Positions 8,840 to 43,175 of a stretch of DNA of 43,348 bases are shown one piece after another (position 1 is the first letter of the stretch; the number at the start of each line of letters is the position of its first letter). Below the pieces are notes generated by a model that was not told the DNA's origin, ran no database searches, and saw nothing but the letters and a program-made list of their open reading frames with translations. This DNA is from Verrucomicrobiota bacterium (lineage in GTDB: Bacteria > Verrucomicrobiota > Verrucomicrobiia > Chthoniobacterales > UBA10450), in contig QHNR01000111.1 of the NCBI GenBank assembly GCA_003218475.1, positions 1-43,348 of the forward strand, in the 5' to 3' direction. Both the position numbers and the translations under genes were made by a program.

Positions 8840-8919
8840 TGTAGCCACGGCCCTGTGGGCCGTTGCCTATCCGTGTGAAGAGCACGCCGGGATGAACCGG
8901 CCACAGGCCGGTAGCTACA
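8840..8919. repeat. Palindromic TGTAGC...GCTACA repeat element, copy 1
   Basis: An 80 bp element with inverted ends TGTAGCCACGGCCC and CCGGTAGCTACA. It contains two G+C-rich hairpins (CGGCCC/GGGCCG and CCGGCC/GGCCGG), like a bacterial interspersed mosaic element. Related copies lie at 30777-30861 and 42334-42408. It separates creD from the methyltransferase. Confidence 0.75.
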
Positions 8920-9818: not shown

Positions 9819-9864
9819 TGGCTGGGGGCGGAATCGAACCGCCGACACGTGGATCTTCAGTCCA
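9819..9864 (-). other. Left att site: 3' fragment of tRNA-Phe (46 bp direct repeat)
   Basis: These 46 bp equal the 3' end of the intact tRNA-Phe gene at 29412-29457, in the same orientation, with one mismatch at 9855 (tRNA position 37, just 3' of the anticodon). The 5' half of a tRNA is missing, so this is not a working gene. A tRNA 3' end duplicated at a distance, with an integrase remnant beside it, is the classic mark of tyrosine-recombinase integration. Confidence 0.88.
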
Positions 9865-9876
9865 TGTTTCTCACGA

Positions 9877-10244
9877 ATGAACAACATAGGAAATTCTTCC
9901 GGGCGCAAGCGAAAGATCGTCATGTCTGAGAATCTGTTGCAGTGGCTTGCGCCTTATCGCTTGAAGTCCGGTCCGATCTTCGACATCGATCCGCGCAAGC
10001 GAATTGCCAAAGTCGTGAAGGCGTCCCGTGTGAAGTGGAAGCGGAACGGTCTGCGTCACAGTTTCGGCAGCTACCGCATGAGCAAATGAAGAACGAAGGA
10101 CAGGTGGCGCTGGAAATGGGCAACTCCCCGAAAGTTCTGAAAGATCATTACTTCGAGGTTGTCGATGAACGCGCGGCGCGCGAGTACTGGTCAATCAAAC
10201 CACTGCCGACTGACGACCGGAAGATTGTTGCTATCGCATCGTAG
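9877..10244 (+). pseudogene. Tyrosine recombinase (integrase), C-terminal remnant
   Basis: Only the C-terminal catalytic third remains. The first frame (from 9877) carries FDIDPRKRIAKVVKAS and the box-II-like GLRHSFGSYRMSK, then stops at 10087. The next frame continues with NEGQVALEMGNSPKVLKDHY, which holds the late His and the nucleophile-type Tyr. One missing base near 10086 would join the two. No N-terminal arm-binding or core-binding part is seen: the sequence starts within ~15 bp of the tRNA fragment, so the 5' part was lost at the island edge. It can no longer make an active enzyme. Confidence 0.8.
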
Positions 10245-11194: not shown

Positions 11195-11371
11195 CGTGAA
11201 GTACTGGAAAATCATCGCTGACAATCTCAACAGTCTCAATGAGGCGCGATTATGAAAATTCATGTAAGCTTAGCGCGCCCCCCGACAAGATGCCCATTCA
11301 GATTAAGAAAGAGATCGAGCTCGAAATCGCGCACGTCCTCTTCATCGACATTGTCGGCTACTCCAAGCTGC
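11195..11371 (+). pseudogene. Relic: 5' end of a third cyclase gene with its upstream region
   Basis: Bases 11195-11290 match the upstream region of the cyclase at 13548. This includes the GTACTGG..ATCATCGCTGACAA block, itself the 5' end of a small-gene family. Bases 11290-11371 match its first ~27 codons (PIQIKKEIELEIAHVLFIDI, then GYSKL). The similarity then stops and the frame continues into unrelated sequence. This shows that a third cyclase gene or partial copy once lay here. Confidence 0.8.
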
Positions 11372-11504
11372 ATCAAGAAACGCGGTTGGAGCTTGGGTTT
11401 ATGTCTCAACCCCGGATTCTCGCGGGCGAACGATCGTCGTGCCGACGCGCATAGCGGCGAACCGGTAAGCGCACGCGGGCGAGCGGCAACGATACTTTAG
11501 TACC

Positions 11505-12056
11505 GTGAAAACATTCTTTTCGATCGTTCTCGCCGTCGCCGTCTCCCTCGGCACTGTCCAAGCGGGACACGGCGGACATGGCGGACACGGCGGACGCAGC
11601 GGATATCATGGCGGACGCGGCGGACATTTTAGCTCGATATCGCCGCGAGGCGGACACAAGTTCAGCCGAAGTGCGCCGAAATTCAGTCGTGGCACATCGG
11701 GAACATATCGAAATTGGGGTGGCCGCAAATGGAGCGGTGGTAAATGGAGCGCCGGTAAATGGGGCGGCCGCAAATGGGGCGGCGGTGGTAAATGGAGCAG
11801 CGGCAGCTGGGGCGGCGGTAGTTGGGATTGGTACCCCTCTGGGGGCTGGGGCATTCCTTACGCACTTAACTACGGCTATTATTCTTATGGGTATTACCCT
11901 TGGTATAGGTACGGACTTGGTTATCCATTCTACTGGGGTTGGGGCATTCCTTACGTGTACGCGTACTACAGCTTTTATCCTTACTGGTACTATCCTTCGT
12001 ATCGGTACGCTTATGATTATTACAATTGCTCCGTATCAAGAAGGCGATTCTTTTGA
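11505..12056 (+). CDS. Secreted Gly/His/Tyr-rich low-complexity protein
   Basis: 183 aa with a clear signal peptide (MKTFFSIVLAVAVSLGTVQA). The mature part has three zones: GHGGHGG repeats, a Trp/Gly/Lys stretch with WGGRKWSGGKW, and an aromatic tail rich in Tyr, Trp and Pro. It ends SRRRFF. No fold or enzyme motif is visible. The composition suggests a structural or matrix protein outside the cell; His-rich repeats could bind metal. Frames on both strands give long shadow ORFs because of the repetitive G+C-rich codons. Confidence 0.75.
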   Translation: MKTFFSIVLAVAVSLGTVQAGHGGHGGHGGRSGYHGGRGGHFSSISPRGGHKFSRSAPKFSRGTSGTYRNWGGRKWSGGKWSAGKWGGRKWGGGGKWSSGSWGGGSWDWYPSGGWGIPYALNYGYYSYGYYPWYRYGLGYPFYWGWGIPYVYAYYSFYPYWYYPSYRYAYDYYNCSVSRRRFF

Positions 12057-12059
12057 AAC

Positions 12060-12126
12060 CTGACTCCTTGAAATCGCCCGCATGCTCGTGCGTCTCGATC
12101 ACGTTGCCCGCGTCGTCGTAAATTCG
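12060..12126 (-). repeat. Decayed copy of the VIRVYD small-gene 3' module
   Basis: On the minus strand it reads IYDDAGNVIETHEHAGDFKE, the C-terminal module of the small-protein family whose best copy is at 25380-25634. The upstream half of the family is missing here. It lies directly downstream of the Gly/Tyr-rich gene. Confidence 0.75.
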
Positions 12127-12137
12127 TATCTGCCGAA

Positions 12138-12326
12138 TTAGTGGCTGCCTATCGTGCCTGTGCCGCCCGTGATGGGTTTGGATTCGCCCGTAACACCGCC
12201 GCCACCTTTGACGTCTTTTTCTGGCTCCAGGTCACGAATTTCCAAGTCACGAATTTTGGCCTTCTTAAGTCGGCGCCAAACCGAGCGGACTACAACGATA
12301 TTCGGCGATCGGTCCTCCATAACCAA
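12138..12326 (-). CDS. Short ORF with DLEPEKDVKGG leader-like motif, copy A
   Basis: 62 aa. The segment KIRDLEIRDLEPEKDVKGG contains a tandem 5-residue repeat (IRDLE) from a duplicated 15 bp unit. A Gly/Thr/Ser-rich tail GVTGESKPITGGTGTIGSH follows. Copy B at 19341 is identical through GVTGESK, then has a different tail ending in DH. The upstream ~25 codons may not be translated: the first Met is in doubt. The layout resembles a double-glycine leader plus variable core peptide. No biosynthetic partner is seen. Confidence 0.5.
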   Translation of the reverse strand: MVMEDRSPNIVVVRSVWRRLKKAKIRDLEIRDLEPEKDVKGGGGVTGESKPITGGTGTIGSH

Positions 12327-12719
12327 CTATTAGTAGGAACGTTTGCTTTAGGATGTTCAACTGACACATTACTCGCAAGCGTCTTGATCGTCCACCACGC
12401 TTTGAAATCGCCCGCGTGACCGTACGTCTCAATCACGTTGCCCGATTCATCATACACGCGAATCACAGCGCGATGTGAAGTGGCAGCGGCTGCGAGCACT
12501 CTATGGTGTCGGAGAGGCGGTTATTGAATGTGAGCCGTGCTGAAGAAGTGGACACCGCGCCAGGGGAGTCCCCGTAACCTTGGCCTCGCAGTCGCTCAAC
12601 TATCAGTGCCGATTGGAATCCTAATTGCGTTTGGCCCACCGTACCACAGCCGACCGAATGGCAGCGCATCGGAAATCAGATCGACGCCGTGATGATCTTT
12701 GCGCGGGCGGACTTCGTAA
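12138..12719. repeat. Duplicated block, copy A
   Basis: Bases 12177-12480 match 19386-19689 at a constant offset of 7209 with very few mismatches. Bases 12481-12719 match 19769-20007 at offset 7288. The 79 bp at 19690-19768 are absent here. The block holds the DVKGG ORF, a diverged VIRVYD module, a GC-rich spacer and the YEVRPRKD module. The last of these forms the C-terminus of the secreted protein at 12596. Confidence 0.9.
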
Positions 12720-13396
12720 ACGTGTTGTGGGCTAGTCATCACAACGGCCAGCGATTGGTGCCCTGTATCAAACAGCAGCAGACCGGTTACGCGCACTAAC
12801 AGTTTCCCAATTGGATTCTTCTTACTAGGTTTCTTCCAACTAGCGTCGATCAAAGGGTTCAACTCATCTCTAGCGAAGTTCGGGTGGCCATCAAGGCGAA
12901 CACGCGGAGTAAATTCTGCCGTCACGGAATGACGCTCGTCTTTCGCCAACGTGCGATGCTTTATCCTGGGATCAACCAACACGATATGGTTATCCGTGTT
13001 CGCTGGGTCAGTAAGCTCGCAATTTGCGCTTTCGCGGCTTCCTATTCTGGCTGTGAGTGCCCAGGCGACGACCGTGACTTTTTGGCCTTCGCCTAACTGT
13101 TTCAATTCGTCGCGACTTCCATACTGAGTGAGATTCGTTGGATGATGTGGCAGATCTTTCATCCATTGAATGCTTCGCAGGACCGATTGTTCATCGTCCG
13201 ACCGGATATTCTTTCGCTTGTTTAGTTCTGGATCACAGGGGTGATCTGGGTCGGGCGGGCCGCACCCTTCATCCGGGCAGTGGGCAACGTCCGCAATGCC
13301 TTTCGGACAGGGTCTGTCCGGGCAGGGCTGCTGCGGGTTAGCAGGTGCACAGAAAACAAACAACGAGAGAAAAAGTATTGGGAGGATTCGTTTCAT
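12596..13396 (-). CDS. Secreted hypothetical protein with repeat-derived C-terminus
   Basis: 266 aa with a signal peptide (MKRILPILFLSLFVFCAPAN). A Pro/Cys-rich segment (CPDRPCPKG, CPDEGCGPP) follows, then a beta-type domain of about 120 residues with DNHIVLVDP, VTAEFTPRVRLDGHP and LLVRVTGLLLFD. The domain pattern recalls secreted proteins of unknown role found in soil bacteria. The last ~40 residues (YEVRPRKDHHGVDLISDALP onward) lie in the duplicated block and equal the N-terminal module of the small-protein family at 25380 and 28831. The C-terminus was therefore acquired from, or shares origin with, that family. Confidence 0.7.
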   Translation of the reverse strand: MKRILPILFLSLFVFCAPANPQQPCPDRPCPKGIADVAHCPDEGCGPPDPDHPCDPELNKRKNIRSDDEQSVLRSIQWMKDLPHHPTNLTQYGSRDELKQLGEGQKVTVVAWALTARIGSRESANCELTDPANTDNHIVLVDPRIKHRTLAKDERHSVTAEFTPRVRLDGHPNFARDELNPLIDASWKKPSKKNPIGKLLVRVTGLLLFDTGHQSLAVVMTSPQHVYEVRPRKDHHGVDLISDALPFGRLWYGGPNAIRIPIGTDS

Positions 13397-13454
13397 AGCT
13401 GGTTCATATCACTTTGTCATTGCCGTGTGGAGATCAATGAGGCAAAATCCCCCG

Positions 13455-13513
13455 CGTAAAGTACTGGGAAATCATCGCTGACAAGCTCAACAGCCTGAAT
13501 GAGGCGCAATTAT
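13455..13513 (+). pseudogene. 5' fragment of the WEIIADNL small gene
   Basis: It reads KYWEIIADKLNSLNEAQL then stop. This matches the first codons of the small gene at 18330 and the similar fragment at 11198. It lies 35 bp before the cyclase start, so it may now serve as leader or promoter-proximal sequence. Confidence 0.65.
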
Positions 13514-13547
13514 GAAATTCACGTAATCTTAGGGCCCCCCGGACAAG

Positions 13548-15920
13548 ATGCCCATTCAGATCAAGAACGAGATCCAGCTCGAAATCGCCCATGTCTTGTT
13601 CATAGACATTGTAGGCTACTCGAAGCTTTCGATTAGCGACCAGCACGCGGCGGTTGAAGAGCTAACCCGGATTGTTCGCGCGTCGGAACAGTTTCAACGA
13701 GCCGAAGCCGCGAGCCGTTTGACCAGGATCCCAACCGGCGACGGGATGGCGCTGGCATTTTACACGACTCCGGAAGCGCCTGCGCAATGCGCGGTGGAGA
13801 TCAGCCGCGCTCTCAAGGAACATCCGCGTCTGCAACTTCGGATGGGAATCCACAGCGGGCTAGTTGGCGGGGTGGTCGATGTAAACGAACGGGCCAATCT
13901 CGCGGGCGCTGGCCTTAACGTGGCGCAGCGAGTGATGGATTGCGGCGACGCCGGGCACATTCTTCTATCCAAACACGTCGCTGAAGATCTGGAAGAATAC
14001 CAGAGGTGGCGACCGTTCCTGCACGATCTTGGTTCGTGCGAAGTGAACCACGGGGTGCGCGTCTCGGTCGTGAACCTCTATGACGATCAATTCGGCAATG
14101 CGAAGCTGCCGCAGAGATTTGAGACGGCGCAGAAACGCCGGAAGCGTCTGCGCTGGGCGACAATCGCAGCAGCGTTGCTTGCGCTCTCGGCAATTGTCGC
14201 GGGTGCGGTAGTATTTTCCCGTAATCGCGAGCGATCGACGCTGGCAGCGCCGGAGAAAAGCATCGCTGTTCTCCCATTCGGAAACCTGAGCCGCGATGCT
14301 GAGAACGCTTACTTTGCCGAAGGTATCCAGGACGAAATCCTGACGCGTTTATCCAAGATCGCCGACTTGAAGGTCATCTCGCGCACGTCCACACAACATT
14401 ACAAAAGCGCGCCGGAAAACCTGCGTGAGATCGCAAAGCAACTTGGTGTCGCTCACATCCTGGAAGGAAGTGTGCAGAAGAGCGGCGACGCAGTGCGCGT
14501 AAACGTGCAGCTAATCAAAGCAGCGAATGATTCCCATCTTTGGGCCGATACGTTTGATCGCAAATTGACCGATATCTTTTCGGTCGAGAGTGAGGTCGCC
14601 AAATCGATTGCTGAGCAGCTACAGGCGAAACTTACTGGCCAGGAAGAGCAAATCATCGGTGCCAAACCAACAGATAATCCTGAAGCTTACGATGCCTACC
14701 TGCGTGGGCTGGCTTATACCCTAAAGACTGTCGACACACCCGCCAATGCCCTCGCCGCGCAGAAATATCTCAAAGAAGCAGTGCGGTTGGATCCGAAGTT
14801 CGCCCTTGCCTGGGCGCACCTCTCAATCGTTGATTCGCGCAACTACCGCCAACAGAGTCTTCAGCCAACGGTCGCCCTCCGTGAAGAGGCGCGGCAAGCC
14901 GCCGAAACCGCCCTCACTCTTCAGCCCAATCTCGGCGAGGCCGTATTGGCGAAGGGATCCTACTACTACTTTTGTCTGAAAGATTATGACACAGCAGTGC
15001 GTTACTTTGAACAAGCACGTCAACTCCTACCGAATAGCAGCAGAATTCCAGAATCGCTGGCCTATTTGGAGCGGAGGCGAGGCCAGTGGGACAGGAGCGA
15101 GTCGTACTTCAACGAAGCCGAGAAGCTTGACCCGCGCAACCTTCACCTACTCACGCAGCACGCGGTTACCTATATCTCTCGTCGTCGTTTCCCAGAAGCG
15201 CTGCAGAAACTTGACCAGGTTCTGAATATCACACCGGACGACGTGGATGCTCTCGCGCTAAAGGCGCTTATCGCACAAGCCGAGGGTGATCTGCCACGTG
15301 CTGCTGCACTACTCGCTCCGCTGCATCCGAACGCCGACAACCCCGACGCCTTGGGAACACAAGTGTACCAAGCGATCTTGGAGCGCCGCCCTGCACCGGT
15401 CATCCCTCGGCTAAAGGAAATACTCGCCAAGCCCGATCCAGCGTTGGGTTATAGCAATGGCGAGCTGCGCTTTTTTTTAGGCTGGGCGCAGGAAGTCGCC
15501 GGCGACCTTGCCGCCGCCCAGGAAAGTTGGCGACAAGCGCGCAGCGAACTGGAACCTCTCCTCAAAGAACAGCCGGAAAATTATTACCTGATTGGAGATC
15601 TCGCGCTCTTCAATATGGGTCTCGGTGACAAAGCCGCCGCGTTGGCTCTGTCGGAGCGGGCCATGGCCGCGAATCCGATCGAGAAAGACCCCTCGACTGG
15701 TCCTTGGTCGCTCGAGATCCTCGCCCGGGTGGCGGCGCAGATGGGGGAGCCCGACCGCGCCATCGCCGCTTTACAGAAACTACTTTCGATACCGTACGCC
15801 GGCTCAATGAGTACAATCATGCCGCTCACTCCAGCGCTGCTCCGGCTCGATCCAATGTTCGATCCGCTCCGGAGTGACCCGCGTTTTCAGAAACTCGCCG
15901 CGTCGCCCGCGCTGAAATGA
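13548..15920 (+). CDS. Class III cyclase / TolB-like / TPR sensor protein, copy 1
   Basis: 790 aa. Residues 10-190 form a class III adenylate/guanylate cyclase domain with metal Asp20 (FIDIVGYSKL) and Asp65 (PTGDGMAL), plus Asn124 and Arg128 in GLNVAQRVM. The usual substrate-selecting residues are changed (R or I before PTGDG, G before LN), so the product, or activity at all, is uncertain. A membrane helix lies at 201-225. Residues 235-360 hold a TolB-like domain (KSIAVLPFGNLS, AHILEGSVQKSGDAVRVNVQ), and the rest is TPR repeats. The layout suggests an inner-membrane protein with a cytoplasmic cyclase and extracytoplasmic sensing part. It overlaps the next cyclase by 4 bp. Confidence 0.92.
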   Translation: MPIQIKNEIQLEIAHVLFIDIVGYSKLSISDQHAAVEELTRIVRASEQFQRAEAASRLTRIPTGDGMALAFYTTPEAPAQCAVEISRALKEHPRLQLRMGIHSGLVGGVVDVNERANLAGAGLNVAQRVMDCGDAGHILLSKHVAEDLEEYQRWRPFLHDLGSCEVNHGVRVSVVNLYDDQFGNAKLPQRFETAQKRRKRLRWATIAAALLALSAIVAGAVVFSRNRERSTLAAPEKSIAVLPFGNLSRDAENAYFAEGIQDEILTRLSKIADLKVISRTSTQHYKSAPENLREIAKQLGVAHILEGSVQKSGDAVRVNVQLIKAANDSHLWADTFDRKLTDIFSVESEVAKSIAEQLQAKLTGQEEQIIGAKPTDNPEAYDAYLRGLAYTLKTVDTPANALAAQKYLKEAVRLDPKFALAWAHLSIVDSRNYRQQSLQPTVALREEARQAAETALTLQPNLGEAVLAKGSYYYFCLKDYDTAVRYFEQARQLLPNSSRIPESLAYLERRRGQWDRSESYFNEAEKLDPRNLHLLTQHAVTYISRRRFPEALQKLDQVLNITPDDVDALALKALIAQAEGDLPRAAALLAPLHPNADNPDALGTQVYQAILERRPAPVIPRLKEILAKPDPALGYSNGELRFFLGWAQEVAGDLAAAQESWRQARSELEPLLKEQPENYYLIGDLALFNMGLGDKAAALALSERAMAANPIEKDPSTGPWSLEILARVAAQMGEPDRAIAALQKLLSIPYAGSMSTIMPLTPALLRLDPMFDPLRSDPRFQKLAASPALK

Positions 15921-18283
15921 ACATGCCCGCCGAAATTAAGAAAGAGATCGCGCTTGAAATCGCCCATGTCCTGTTCATCGACATTGTTGGCTACTCGAAG
16001 CTTTCGATTAGCGACCAGCACGCGGCGGTTGAAGAGCTAACCCGGATTGTTCGCGCGTCCGAGCAATTTCAACGAGCTGAAGCCGCGAGCCGTTTGACCA
16101 GGATCCCAACCGGCGACGGAATGGCGCTGGCATTTTACACGAGTCCGGAAGCGCCTGCGCAATGCGCCGTGGAGATCAGCCGCGCTCTCAAGGAACATCC
16201 GCGTCTACAACTTCGGATGGGAATCCACAGCGGGCTAGTTGGCGGGGTGCTCGATGTAAACGAACGGGCCAATCTCGCGGGCGCTGGCCTTAACACGGCG
16301 CAGCGAGTGATGGATTGCGGCGACGCCGGGCACATTCTTCTATCCAAACACGTCGCTGAAGATCTGGAAGAATACGAGAAGTGGCAACCGTTCCTGCACG
16401 ATCTTGGTTCGTGCGAAGTGAAGCATGGCGTGCGCGTCTCGGTCGTGAACCTCTATGACGATCAATTCGGCAATGCGAAGCTGCCGCAGAGATTTGAGAC
16501 CGCGCAGAAACGGCGGGTGCGTCTGCGCTGGGCGACAATCGCGGCAGCGTTGCTTGCGCTCGCGGCAATTGTCGCGGGTGGCGTAATATTTTCCCGTAAT
16601 CGCGAGCGATCGACGCTGGCTGCTCCGGAGAAAAGTATTGCCGTGCTTCCATTTGAAAATCTGAGCGAAGACAAAGCCAACGCCTACTTTGCCATGGGCA
16701 TTCAAGATGAAATTCTGACGCGCCTATCCAAGATCGCTGATCTCAAAGTCATCTCGCGTACTTCCACACAACATTACAAAAGCGCGCCGGAAAATCTGCC
16801 GGAGATTGCCAGGCAACTTGGCGTGGCTCACATTCTGGAAGGTAGCGTGCAAAAAAGCGGTGATGCGGTGCGCGTGAATGTGCAGTTGATCAAAGCAGCT
16901 AACGATTCCCATCTTTGGGCCGATACCTTTGATCGTAAACTGACGGACATCTTTTCTGTCGAGAGTGAGGTGGCCAAAGCTATTGCGGACCAGCTTCAAG
17001 CCAACATTTCCCCGACTGAAAAGGCGGCGATTGAGAAAGCCCCGACAACCGATCTTGTCGCATACGACCTTTACCAGCACGCCCAGGCGCTGGTCGCCGA
17101 TACATCCGATGCTATCCATGCAAGGGAGAAGCTGCCTCAGGCAGCACAGCTGCTCAATGAAGCGCTCGCGCGGGATCCGAACTTTTTACAGGCTTGGTGC
17201 CTGCTCTCCAGAGTGCATAGTGTTGCGTACTTTAGGGGCCATGATCACACGCCGGCCCGTCTCGAGCTGGCCAAGACCGCGCTGGATCGCGCTATACGCC
17301 TCCAACCAGACGCGGGTGAAATCCACCTTGCATCGGCGAATTACTACTACCAGGGCTTTCGCGACTACGAGCGCGCCCGCAGCGAACTGGCTATTGCCAG
17401 AAAGACGCTGCCGAACAATGCTGATGCATTCCTGTACACGGGCCTGATCGACCGACGCGAAGGCCACTGGGAAGAAGCAACTCGCAACATGGAGCGCGCT
17501 CTTGAGCTGGACCCGCGCAACTACTTCATTCTCCAGCAACTCGCTTTCGCTTACGGATGGCAGCATCGCTACGCCGAAGCAGCCCGAATCTATGATCGAG
17601 CACTGACGATCGTGCCGGCGGATCCGAATACTCGCATACAGCAGGCGCTGGTTGCGTTGGATTGGCAGGCTGACATCAAACCCTTTCAGACTACCCTGGC
17701 CGGTTTGATGGCTGAAGATCCCAGTATGGCGCTCGATATAGATACGCTCCTGTATTCTTTCTGCGATCGGGCGTGGGCTGCCGCGACCTGGGTCCTGACA
17801 AACTATCCGCGTGAGGGCGCCGCAAATAATGGTGTCAACTATCCGTATGCATATTGGCAGGGCGTCCTTGCTCGCTCCCAGGGTGATTCACGCACAGCGC
17901 GGGTCGCCTTTGCCGCTGCACGCAGAGAAGTCCAAAAGATAGTGGACCAGCAGCCCAATTTCGCGGCTGCTATTAGTCTGTTGGGAATGATCGACGCCGG
18001 TCTCGACAAAAAAGAAGAGGCCCTAAAGGAGGGTCAACGCGCGTGTGAATTGCTGCCCATTTCCAAAGACGCTATCGACGGTGCATCCCTGGCCATGAAT
18101 CTGGCGCAGATCTACACTTGGCTCGGTGATAAAGATCGCGCCATCGAACAGATCGCGACGCTGGAACGCATCCCGAACCCCCTCAGCTATGGTCTTCTCA
18201 AACTGCACCCTTACTGGGACTCACTGCGTGGCGATCCGCGCTTCGAGAAAATCGTTGCCTCGCTCGCGCCGAAAGAACGGTAA
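15917..18283 (+). CDS. Class III cyclase / TolB-like / TPR sensor protein, copy 2
   Basis: 788 aa with the same domain order as copy 1, and a 4 bp start overlap with it. From 15989 to 16620 the DNA is almost identical to 13614-14245 at a constant offset of 2375 without indels. Past the membrane helix it diverges quickly, with many synonymous changes in the TolB-like part. The TPR part is different in sequence. Catalytic-type residues D, D, N and R are kept (GLNTAQRVM). The C-terminus WDSLRGDPRFEKIVASL mirrors copy 1's LRSDPRFQKLAAS. The pair is probably co-transcribed and could give one signal output with two different inputs. Confidence 0.92.
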   Translation: MNMPAEIKKEIALEIAHVLFIDIVGYSKLSISDQHAAVEELTRIVRASEQFQRAEAASRLTRIPTGDGMALAFYTSPEAPAQCAVEISRALKEHPRLQLRMGIHSGLVGGVLDVNERANLAGAGLNTAQRVMDCGDAGHILLSKHVAEDLEEYEKWQPFLHDLGSCEVKHGVRVSVVNLYDDQFGNAKLPQRFETAQKRRVRLRWATIAAALLALAAIVAGGVIFSRNRERSTLAAPEKSIAVLPFENLSEDKANAYFAMGIQDEILTRLSKIADLKVISRTSTQHYKSAPENLPEIARQLGVAHILEGSVQKSGDAVRVNVQLIKAANDSHLWADTFDRKLTDIFSVESEVAKAIADQLQANISPTEKAAIEKAPTTDLVAYDLYQHAQALVADTSDAIHAREKLPQAAQLLNEALARDPNFLQAWCLLSRVHSVAYFRGHDHTPARLELAKTALDRAIRLQPDAGEIHLASANYYYQGFRDYERARSELAIARKTLPNNADAFLYTGLIDRREGHWEEATRNMERALELDPRNYFILQQLAFAYGWQHRYAEAARIYDRALTIVPADPNTRIQQALVALDWQADIKPFQTTLAGLMAEDPSMALDIDTLLYSFCDRAWAAATWVLTNYPREGAANNGVNYPYAYWQGVLARSQGDSRTARVAFAAARREVQKIVDQQPNFAAAISLLGMIDAGLDKKEEALKEGQRACELLPISKDAIDGASLAMNLAQIYTWLGDKDRAIEQIATLERIPNPLSYGLLKLHPYWDSLRGDPRFEKIVASLAPKER

Positions 18284-29411: not shown

Positions 29412-29457
29412 TGGCTGGGGGCGGAATCGAACCGCCGACACGTGGATTTTCAGTCCA
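29412..29457 (-). other. Right att site within tRNA-Phe
   Basis: Right copy of the 46 bp direct repeat. It spans from the 5' strand of the anticodon stem to the tRNA 3' end, the usual crossover segment for tRNA-targeting tyrosine recombinases. Confidence 0.85.
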
Positions 29458-29484
29458 CTGCTCTGCCAACTGAGCTACCCAGCC
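29412..29484 (-). tRNA. tRNA-Phe (anticodon GAA)
   Basis: 73 nt on the minus strand, starting GGCTGGGTAGCTCAG. The anticodon arm has loop CTGAAAA with GAA. The T arm is CGGTTCGATTCCG, and the acceptor pairs GGCTGGG with CCCAGCC plus discriminator A. CCA is not encoded. Bases 29412-29457 (its 3' part) are the right copy of the island's direct repeat. Reconstitution by the element must have kept the gene intact. Confidence 0.97.
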
Positions 29485-30776: not shown

Positions 30777-30861
30777 TGTAGCCACCGGGCTGCGGCCGGT
30801 CACCAGGACTCATCCGATTCACGACCACCTTCACCAGACGGCCCGCAGGGCCGTGGCTACA
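30777..30861. repeat. TGTAGC...GCTACA repeat element, copy 2
   Basis: An 85 bp element with ends TGTAGCCACCGGGC and GCCGTGGCTACA. It contains G+C-rich hairpins (CGGCCC-type), like the copy at 8840. It lies between the pyrE stop and the convergent DUF255 gene and could act as a two-way terminator. Confidence 0.75.
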
Positions 30862-41501: not shown

Positions 41502-43139
41502 TCACTTTGTTCCAGCGTCAAATTTATAGATTTTGAATTCCGGACTCGCCGCCATCACCGTGGCGCTTTGGGCGAGATGCTGTGCGAATTCAGGATAGTA
41601 ATCCAACCACCAGAACGTATTCGTGGTGAACACTACGTGTGTGGCGCCGCGGCGTCGCAGCTTTTCAAGATCAACAATCGCGTCCTGGCCATCGCTCGGA
41701 ACACCGGCGTAAATCCCGTCTTTTTCCAGAAAATGCCAGCCCTTGCGCTCCGAATAATAAAATATCGTTGGGTCGCCCATGTCGGCGGCAACTATTAACG
41801 CATCGGACGCGGTGATTTTGTCTAATTCCAGACCAGTATCTCGAAGTTGAGCGGCGGACGATTCGTAAAGTGGTCGCAAGTTCACATAGGAAAGAATTGC
41901 AAATGAACCAGTGAGCAGAAGTGACAATATTATCGCGACAGGACGCGAAGCGATTTTCGACGCGAAAAAGGCACAAGCGGCCCCGGCAAATGCAGCTGCG
42001 ACCGGCACCAGAGGAAGTTGATACCATCGGTGGCGATTGCCGTAGCCTAGCGCTACGACGAATAGAACCATAGCAGCCAGCCACCAATCAAAGAGGCGGC
42101 CGTATCTCCCTCGCGGCCCCACGAACAAACCCATGAGCGCCATGACCACCAGAACGGGTGTCAGGCTTGATGTCGCAGTCTGGCGCGCGATGTCCCAGTA
42201 CCACCCCAAACTCTCGATTCGAACACCACCGGCACCGAAGAAATGATGCGGATAAAATCTCTGTGCGATTTGATGCGCATGCCAGTACCAGGCGGCAGAT
42301 GGCAGCAATGTGATAGCCGCGAAGAGAAGCAGTTGTAGCCGGGATCGGTGATCCCGGCTTCTAAGGAGCTTTATTTCGCGTCGGCCGGGATCAGCGATCC
42401 CGGCTACAGTCAGATACGCAAGCGGCGCGAAGATAATAGCGCTTGTAATTTTGATTAGGATCGACAGGGAAATCGCAATCGCTGCCAGAAACAAGGGCGT
42501 CCACTTTTGATCGTGCGTCCAACACAGAAAAAAATATAACCCGATGATCGCGAGAATAAGCGATGGGACGTCTGGCATGAACGAGCGACCGGCAAAAATA
42601 TTCAAAGGCGCGAAACTGAAGAAAAATGTGGCCCAAACCGCTGCTGTGCTGCCGAAAATTTCCCGGACGAGCAAAAAGAAAAATGGCAGGGAAACAGCGA
42701 AGAAAATTACGGCCTGGCCGCGTCCAATCCATTCATGAACACCCGCTAATTTGTAACAAATCGCCGCAACGAACGGCAAAATCGGAAATTCCGTTCCAAC
42801 GTAGCCTGTGGCATCACCGGCCCAATCGATCTGCGGATAAGCAAAATGAAAACCTCGCTGGCTAAAGTTATGCGCAATCGCGGCGACGTCGCTTTGCCGC
42901 CAGCTCCAATGGTCGACGTAGGGTTGATTAATGAAAATCAGCCGCGCCGCGACGGCTAGAATCCAAATAGCTGCCAGAAGTTTGCCAGCGTGGCCATCCC
43001 GCCGCCGGATCCAGAAAACAATCGCAGCTCGGCGCAAGAGAATGCTCCGGAACAATCCGCCTCTCCCCTCAGGCGAGGGGAGAAGATTGAGGTGAGGGGT
43101 CTTCGGCATCATGTAAGCACGAAATAAGCAAACCCTCAC
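41502..43139 (-). CDS. GT39/ArnT-like membrane glycosyltransferase
   Basis: 545 aa in the track. A polytopic protein with at least ten membrane helices. The first periplasmic loop has DHWSWRQSDVAAIAHNFSQR; the acidic residue there is the usual catalytic Asp position of GT-C enzymes. Later parts include LNIFAGRSFMPDVPSL and a C-terminal soluble domain with ATHVVFTTNTFWW. It should move a sugar from a lipid carrier to a lipid or protein acceptor. The start is uncertain: residues 15-28 (PHLNLLPSPEGRGG) translate a repeat, so a start at or after 43055 is likely. A 75 bp repeat is inserted in frame at 42334. Confidence 0.85.
   Translation of the reverse strand: MRVCLFRAYMMPKTPHLNLLPSPEGRGGLFRSILLRRAAIVFWIRRRDGHAGKLLAAIWILAVAARLIFINQPYVDHWSWRQSDVAAIAHNFSQRGFHFAYPQIDWAGDATGYVGTEFPILPFVAAICYKLAGVHEWIGRGQAVIFFAVSLPFFFLLVREIFGSTAAVWATFFFSFAPLNIFAGRSFMPDVPSLILAIIGLYFFLCWTHDQKWTPLFLAAIAISLSILIKITSAIIFAPLAYLTVAGIADPGRREIKLLRSRDHRSRLQLLLFAAITLLPSAAWYWHAHQIAQRFYPHHFFGAGGVRIESLGWYWDIARQTATSSLTPVLVVMALMGLFVGPRGRYGRLFDWWLAAMVLFVVALGYGNRHRWYQLPLVPVAAAFAGAACAFFASKIASRPVAIILSLLLTGSFAILSYVNLRPLYESSAAQLRDTGLELDKITASDALIVAADMGDPTIFYYSERKGWHFLEKDGIYAGVPSDGQDAIVDLEKLRRRGATHVVFTTNTFWWLDYYPEFAQHLAQSATVMAASPEFKIYKFDAGTK
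42334..42408. repeat. TGTAGC...GCTACA repeat, copy 3, in frame in the GT39 gene
   Basis: 75 bp (25 codons) with ends TGTAGCCGGGATC and GATCCCGGCTACA and two GGGATC/GATCCC hairpins. Read on the coding strand it gives AGIADPGRREIKLLRSRDHR and continues SRLQ, a polar insert between two membrane helices. Confidence 0.85.
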
Positions 43140-43175
43140 CCTCCCCTCACCCTTGAGAAGGGAGAGGCGATATAC
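43053..43175. repeat. Pair of CCCTCACC / GGGGAGAGG palindromic repeats
   Basis: CGCCTCTCCCCTCAGGCGAG, then GGGAGAAG at 43058, and CCCTCACCCTTGAGAAGGGA, then GAGGCG at 43141. They are similar to 34745. The first runs into the 5' end of the GT39 ORF. The rest of 43176-43289 holds no supported gene. Confidence 0.65.

Follow-up and report, generated by a model that had tools for sequence, protein, structure and literature searches.

The window, i.e., the whole 43,348-nucleotide stretch of DNA analyzed here, carries on its minus strand a 545-residue open reading frame (ORF) for a membrane glycosyltransferase, and a palindromic element of the GTAG-type REP class lies wholly within that ORF. The features of interest are as follows.

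41502..43139, minus strand: host gene, an ArnT-like GT-C glycosyltransferase (Pfam PMT_2/PMT)
42334..42408, minus strand: GTAG-REP dimer of 75 bp, encoding residues 245-269 (VAGIADPGRREIKLLRSRDHRSRLQ)
42384..42408, minus strand: first REP in the direction of the gene, TGTAGCCGGGATC-GCT-GATCCCGGC
42359..42383, minus strand: drifting spacer between the hairpins, differing among orthologues by 66% in amino acids and 51% at fourfold sites
42334..42358, plus strand: second REP, inverted, TGTAGCCGGGATC-GGT-GATCCCGGC
8840..8919, no strand assigned: intergenic GTAG-REP dimer of another stem family (TGTAGCCACGGCCC)
30777..30861, no strand assigned: intergenic GTAG-REP dimer of another stem family (TGTAGCCACCGGGC)

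The host protein matched Pfam PMT_2 with 54 bits against a cut-off of 26, and PMT was also matched, while ArnT was the best Foldseek match to its AlphaFold model (5F15, E value of 3.5e-10; also 5EZM), with a GT-C fold; we therefore describe it as an ArnT-like GT-C glycosyltransferase. An earlier, sequence-only reading of this DNA had named the gene GT39, which is right in that it is a membrane glycosyltransferase but approximate as a label. A profile search of solved structures with the host protein returned spurious designed-protein matches only. In the AlphaFold model, numbered as the window residue minus 9, the insert falls at the break between helices 222-239 and 250-286, where the loop has a pLDDT of about 43, in agreement with the earlier placement of the palindrome between transmembrane helices; in the model of an empty homologue, the helices are nearly continuous at this point, with pLDDT values of 81-93. 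The loop is probably on the cytoplasmic side, since both the empty and the REP loop types are basic, following the positive-inside rule. The gene likely starts at an ATG at 43112 or 43109. At 43050-43170, the ORF's N terminus (TPHLNLLPSPEGRGG) and another interspersed repeat overlap; ORF residues 1-23 recur at 96% at G000:C117:3-71, with variants in orthologues. The true start may lie further in.

Two other observations concern the rest of the window. Positions 9819-9885 match part of the tRNA gene at 29412-29484 (84% over 67 nt); this partial copy received no Rfam tRNA call and is possibly the leftover of an integration event. Tandem paralogues with a common start (...EIEL/EIAHVLFIDIVGYSKL) occupy 11278-18283, with 93% at the DNA level between 13545 and 15920 and a third related piece at 11278.

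The 75-bp TGTAGC...GCTACA element at 42334-42408 is made up of two inverted GTAG-type REP hairpins, i.e., is a BIME-like dimer. Its outer arms, of 25 nt each, are 96% complementary and separated by 25 nt, and each arm forms its own hairpin, GCCGGGATC-nnn-GATCCCGGC (TGTAGCCGGGATC-nnn-GATCCCGGC), with both halves consisting of TGTAG, a 9-bp stem, and a 3-nt loop and with the GTAG tag at the hairpin foot. The entire element folds as one long hairpin much stabler than shuffled sequence, evident by an RNA folding energy of -50.3 kcal/mol (z = -8.9), which none of 200 shuffles equaled, and a DNA fold with z = -10.0. Its length is a multiple of three and its frame is free of stops, exactly at the coordinates given by the sequence-only reading. 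In the first arm, just one of the three frames lacks stops (V-A-G-I-x-D-P-G), and the same frame is used in all species carrying this family, termed family A below. The element is interspersed: by BLAST, 47 places across the 3.16-Mb genome match it, with 13 exact single-REP matches in G000, and 46 TGTAG hairpins were counted in 379 kb against none in shuffled sequence, many contigs in that count having been picked for holding the repeat. A tRNA was the sole match of the Rfam search. The dimers at 8840 and 30777, previously proposed to be of the same family, are indeed intergenic and of the same GTAG superfamily, but their stem families differ and they are not copies of the element.

Homologues without the palindrome carry a different, shorter loop at this position; the sequence-only reading had named such homologues with the same loop as evidence that the loop is native, and that comparison was run. 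Four genomes of the genus (G007, G029, G013, and G023) have the short basic loop VWQKWGRNFLRR, and a fifth, G004, has the same loop as far as its partial, truncated contig reaches. Short loops without insert were also found in four outgroup homologues of 49-59% identity (RRFS, QRYG, and RRFG types) and in two distant homologues (Nodosilinea and Zixiibacteriota). In most other orthologues of the genus, a palindromic element is present with its left edge at the identical base. The distance between fixed anchors is 108 nt in the empty class versus 144 nt in the class with A-type elements, so that the 75 bp take the place of some 39 nt of the native loop. Judged from these alignments, the element replaced an unrelated native loop of ~13 residues, for a net gain of 12 residues; the earlier estimate of ~25 added residues is thus correct for what is encoded but overlooks what was displaced. 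The palindrome is, then, inside the ORF, in frame, and absent from these homologues.

At the glycosyltransferase (GT) loop, at least five palindrome families, all with lengths that are multiples of three and all stop-free, occupy the same codon in about 15 species of one genus, distributed as follows.

Family A (GCCGGGATC stems): G000, G022, G014, G016, G018, G025, G019
Family B: G032; G006 starts alike, then runs into a scaffold gap
Family C (longer, with two inner hairpins): G034, G011, G030
Family D: G028; decayed in G033
Family E (non-GTAG): G015

Family A REPs are found in 29 of 35 genomes of the genus and family C REPs in 34 of 35; because both coexist in nearly all genomes, the difference in the slot cannot be put down to whole species having changed their REP family. 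When the insert columns were left out of the gene tree, G016 (family A) and G030 (family C) came out as sisters with support of 98/93, and their flanks are 97-100% identical over hundreds of bases on either side. The two differ only in a patch of ~170 bp that starts at the REP's left edge and ends at codon 283, i.e., the insert plus codons 270-283; given the near-identical flanks, this patch is either an allele swap by short-tract recombination or a local assembly chimera. No donor of the G030 patch turned up; the closest partial matches were the G034 and G011 inserts (80-88%) and the downstream part of G014 (81%). Six of the seven family A spacers share descent, with a mean identity for all seven of 0.47 compared to 0.27 for shuffled spacers (0 of 5,000), and the A-type dimer of G022 has an unrelated spacer, which points to another swap.

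Several other features of this gene were observed. The C-type insert at L014 (G011) has its inner CAAGGA...TCCTTG inverted relative to L011 and L022, with the frame still open, and the palindrome in the same slot at L016 (G015) and L103 is of the non-GTAG family GAAAGCGGCGACATGTCGCCGCTTTC. At L025 (G019), the GT gene is broken by a deletion ending inside the right REP arm, and at L026 (G008), the loop and the downstream part of the gene are deleted with a frameshift; these could be real decay or assembly error. The gene is also a mosaic (L017 versus L019 over codons 191-230 and L010 versus L027 over codons 411-500), with stretches of 70-82% identity in pairs otherwise ~97% identical, and the reverse, a pattern that suggests frequent short recombination between species.

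RAYT-like Y1 transposases, a plausible mover, are frequent, with 11 matches in G000. One RAYT lineage (HVH motif; G016:C57) has A-family REPs on its flanks at a distance of no more than about 100 bp, the genomes with such flanked copies being G016, G015, G027, G014, G034, G020, G009, G025, and G001; of the 11 loci that share 65% identity or more with the G016 RAYT, 9 have A-family REPs within this distance, and more distant RAYTs often have other TGTAG hairpins alongside. The highest-scoring Y1_Tnp genes, with one exception, have no flanking TGTAG REPs. C-type REP pairs in G023 and G013 were considered as RAYT flanks and rejected, since what lies between them is intergenic DNA close to a hemC-like gene. 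In the assembly to which the window belongs, which is 83% complete, the cognate RAYT is represented only by a 43% relative, with no adjoining REP. The association in sister genomes suggests that a RAYT was the original mover.

With RAYTs and many REP families coexisting in each genome, it is conceivable that this loop, as one of a small number of permissive or targeted sites, acquired a separate RAYT-driven insertion in each species, and the G022 dimer, at the same site with an unrelated spacer, is in keeping with this. Such independent transpositions would, however, have to share in the GT gene a left edge identical to the base across families, and they do not account for the common descent of the spacers in six species; moreover, the swapped patch includes about 45 bp of unique coding sequence beyond the REP, and a transposon would not bring that along. 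We consider this alternative rather unlikely.

Compared to the rest of the gene, the arms are strikingly constant at silent sites. Among the seven A-type GT orthologues, fourfold-site differences amount to 2.7% in the arms, compared to 51% for the spacer and 44.8% for the remainder of the gene, and none of 435 other 16-codon windows of the gene has a silent difference as low; part of this conservation reflects selection of cases, because family A was grouped by its arms. Spacer amino acids differ in 66% of comparisons. In the non-A orthologues, the palindromes differ in sequence but are intact and are not A arms in decay; only that of G033 looks decayed. Because the spacers share descent, the freezing of the arms is not due to youth of the element in each species. 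By these comparisons, the arms appear to be maintained as DNA and not as protein, with the peptide not the thing selected. The FtsK loop independently replicates both the family turnover and the silent-site conservation of the arms: across 28 genomes, it holds A, GGCAGGCG, CGCGGGCG, GGCCCCGAAAG, or GAGTCCGG palindromes, degenerate remnants, or nothing, with no palindrome in four genomes, and its arms differ at 4.3% of fourfold sites versus 47.6% and 49.9% in the flanks.

This constancy in two genes, together with the strong fold and the retention of palindromicity while sequence changes between species, would also be expected if the hairpin were selected as an RNA or DNA structure, through mRNA stability, translational pausing, or binding of gyrase or another protein. 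Against this, both-sided changes were seen in 0 of 18 base pairs within family A, a test of six sequences only, so that covariation does not support selection for RNA structure, and absence is tolerated, with no palindrome in five genomes of the genus at the GT loop and in four at FtsK. The lack of compensatory change in these six sequences may be more readily explained by copying from other REPs than by selection for pairing, and we regard structural selection as a rather unlikely cause of the kept arms.

All genomes of the genus used here are metagenome assemblies, and one of them, G006, has a scaffold gap (a run of N) in the GT loop; palindromes of other loci or species might thus have been stitched into the gene during assembly. 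About 15 independent assemblies nonetheless have an in-frame, stop-free element at the same codon, the FtsK loop repeats the pattern, and the spacers share descent. As an explanation of the element's presence, an artefact is largely refuted and very improbable; it may still apply to the single G016/G030 patch, since short palindromes in conserved genes can give rise to assembler chimeras. Nothing was found in favor of a native low-complexity loop that is palindromic by chance, a reading refuted by the shuffles (0 of 200 folding as well), the 47 genomic BLAST places, and the empty homologues with another loop, and so improbable as to be negligible.

The GT gene is one of many hosts. Sixty A-type REP places were fetched from other genomes of the genus regardless of location, and 30-31 of these are intragenic (31 being 52%, with a 95% interval of 39-64%), counting as genes those supported by Pfam or orthologous to such genes. 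All but one are in frame; at L183, the exception, the frame stops shortly beyond the REP. The sampled hosts include DnaE, DnaX, MiaA, a MiaB-like protein, MnmA, RmlD, IspG, ThiC, ArgC, Rho, ABC and MFS transporters, histidine kinases, and others, and the window's own genome has in-frame REPs in FtsK, UvrD, Mfd, a fused 2-oxoacid dehydrogenase, and a YfhO-like protein. In a compact genome, random insertion is expected to fall in coding DNA more than half the time, so that an intragenic share of about half means genes are still avoided. A PurL-like ORF (named by eye) at L082 (G034:C16) has A-family REPs at two separate sites with open frames. The open frames in about 15 species lend indirect support to the view that the element at the GT loop is translated in the cell. 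The sequence-only reading called interspersed palindromes rare inside coding DNA; for this lineage that is wrong, about half the sampled copies being found there, and in-frame GTAG REPs were reported in 2013. The overall interpretation given by that reading is partly supported.

The reading we favor, with a probability of roughly 0.76, begins with GTAG-type REPs as small hairpins thought to be mobilized by RAYT (Y1/HUH tyrosine) transposases. A REP dimer would have entered a short charged inter-helix loop in the ancestor of most of the genus, displacing the native loop, and would owe its survival to a frame without stops and to a loop tolerant of changes in length and sequence. The site would then have served as a slot, in which the palindrome at the same codon was repeatedly replaced by other REP families, at least partly by short-tract homologous recombination with alleles of relatives. 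The REP DNA would have been kept up in one of two ways: through re-seeding or gene conversion, with other REP copies or relatives as the source, or through selection acting on the hairpin as DNA or RNA. Recombination is the putative swapping agent, and the insert is presumably near-neutral for the enzyme.

GTAG REPs inside genes were described by Di Nocera et al. (2013; PMC3733652), most of them in the verrucomicrobium Opitutus terrae; these are often dimers encoding 20-30 residues, often reside in replication or repair genes and also in tRNA genes, and in two Xanthomonas recB genes different REPs occupy about the same site. In-frame GTAG REPs, including those of a verrucomicrobium, are therefore already known, and the present element belongs to this kind: like GTAG REPs and BIMEs, it has a GTAG-tagged hairpin, inverted dimers, interspersed multicopy distribution, several families per genome, and a family-specific Y1 transposase (HUH motif) with the same REP alongside, here in sister genomes (G015, G016, G027, G014, and G034, among others). 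Unlike in that report, site sharing is traced here across the species of a genus, one loop of which holds five families; to this are added an allele-swap tract, a replaced native loop, frozen silent sites in the arms, and an intragenic share of about half among one family's sampled copies. In the literature searched, which included few subscription papers, we found no description of a slot whose families turn over within a genus, nor of the swap tract, the replaced loop, or the freezing of the arms. To our knowledge, REPINs have been studied as extragenic populations, whereas here many copies lie in coding DNA. REPINs are described as repeated REP-derived units that populate genomes and are linked to RAYTs (Bertels and Rainey, 2011; PMC3116915). 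The Rickettsia palindromic elements (Ogata, 2000/2002), an older parallel, are described in PMC10969869 as in-frame palindromes in unrelated housekeeping genes; at ~150 bp, they are set apart by that description from the present 75-bp, RAYT-linked GTAG dimer, and it is because of the GTAG/RAYT link that we place the element with REPs.

Altogether, the locus offers an unusually clean case of a mobile intragenic hairpin that can be traced over one genus through gain, loss of the native loop, swapping, and upkeep at the DNA level, and it makes the persistence of REPs testable as re-seeding, gene conversion, or hairpin selection. More broadly, loops of housekeeping proteins may serve as long-lived REP slots, in which unrelated alleles would be exchanged in frame by recombination and the arms kept by continual re-seeding, so that selfish hairpins persist by turnover and not as neutral fossils, a proposition on which we judge the odds to be even. 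For annotation and structure prediction in soil Verrucomicrobia, REP-encoded loops of about 25 residues should be expected in core proteins.
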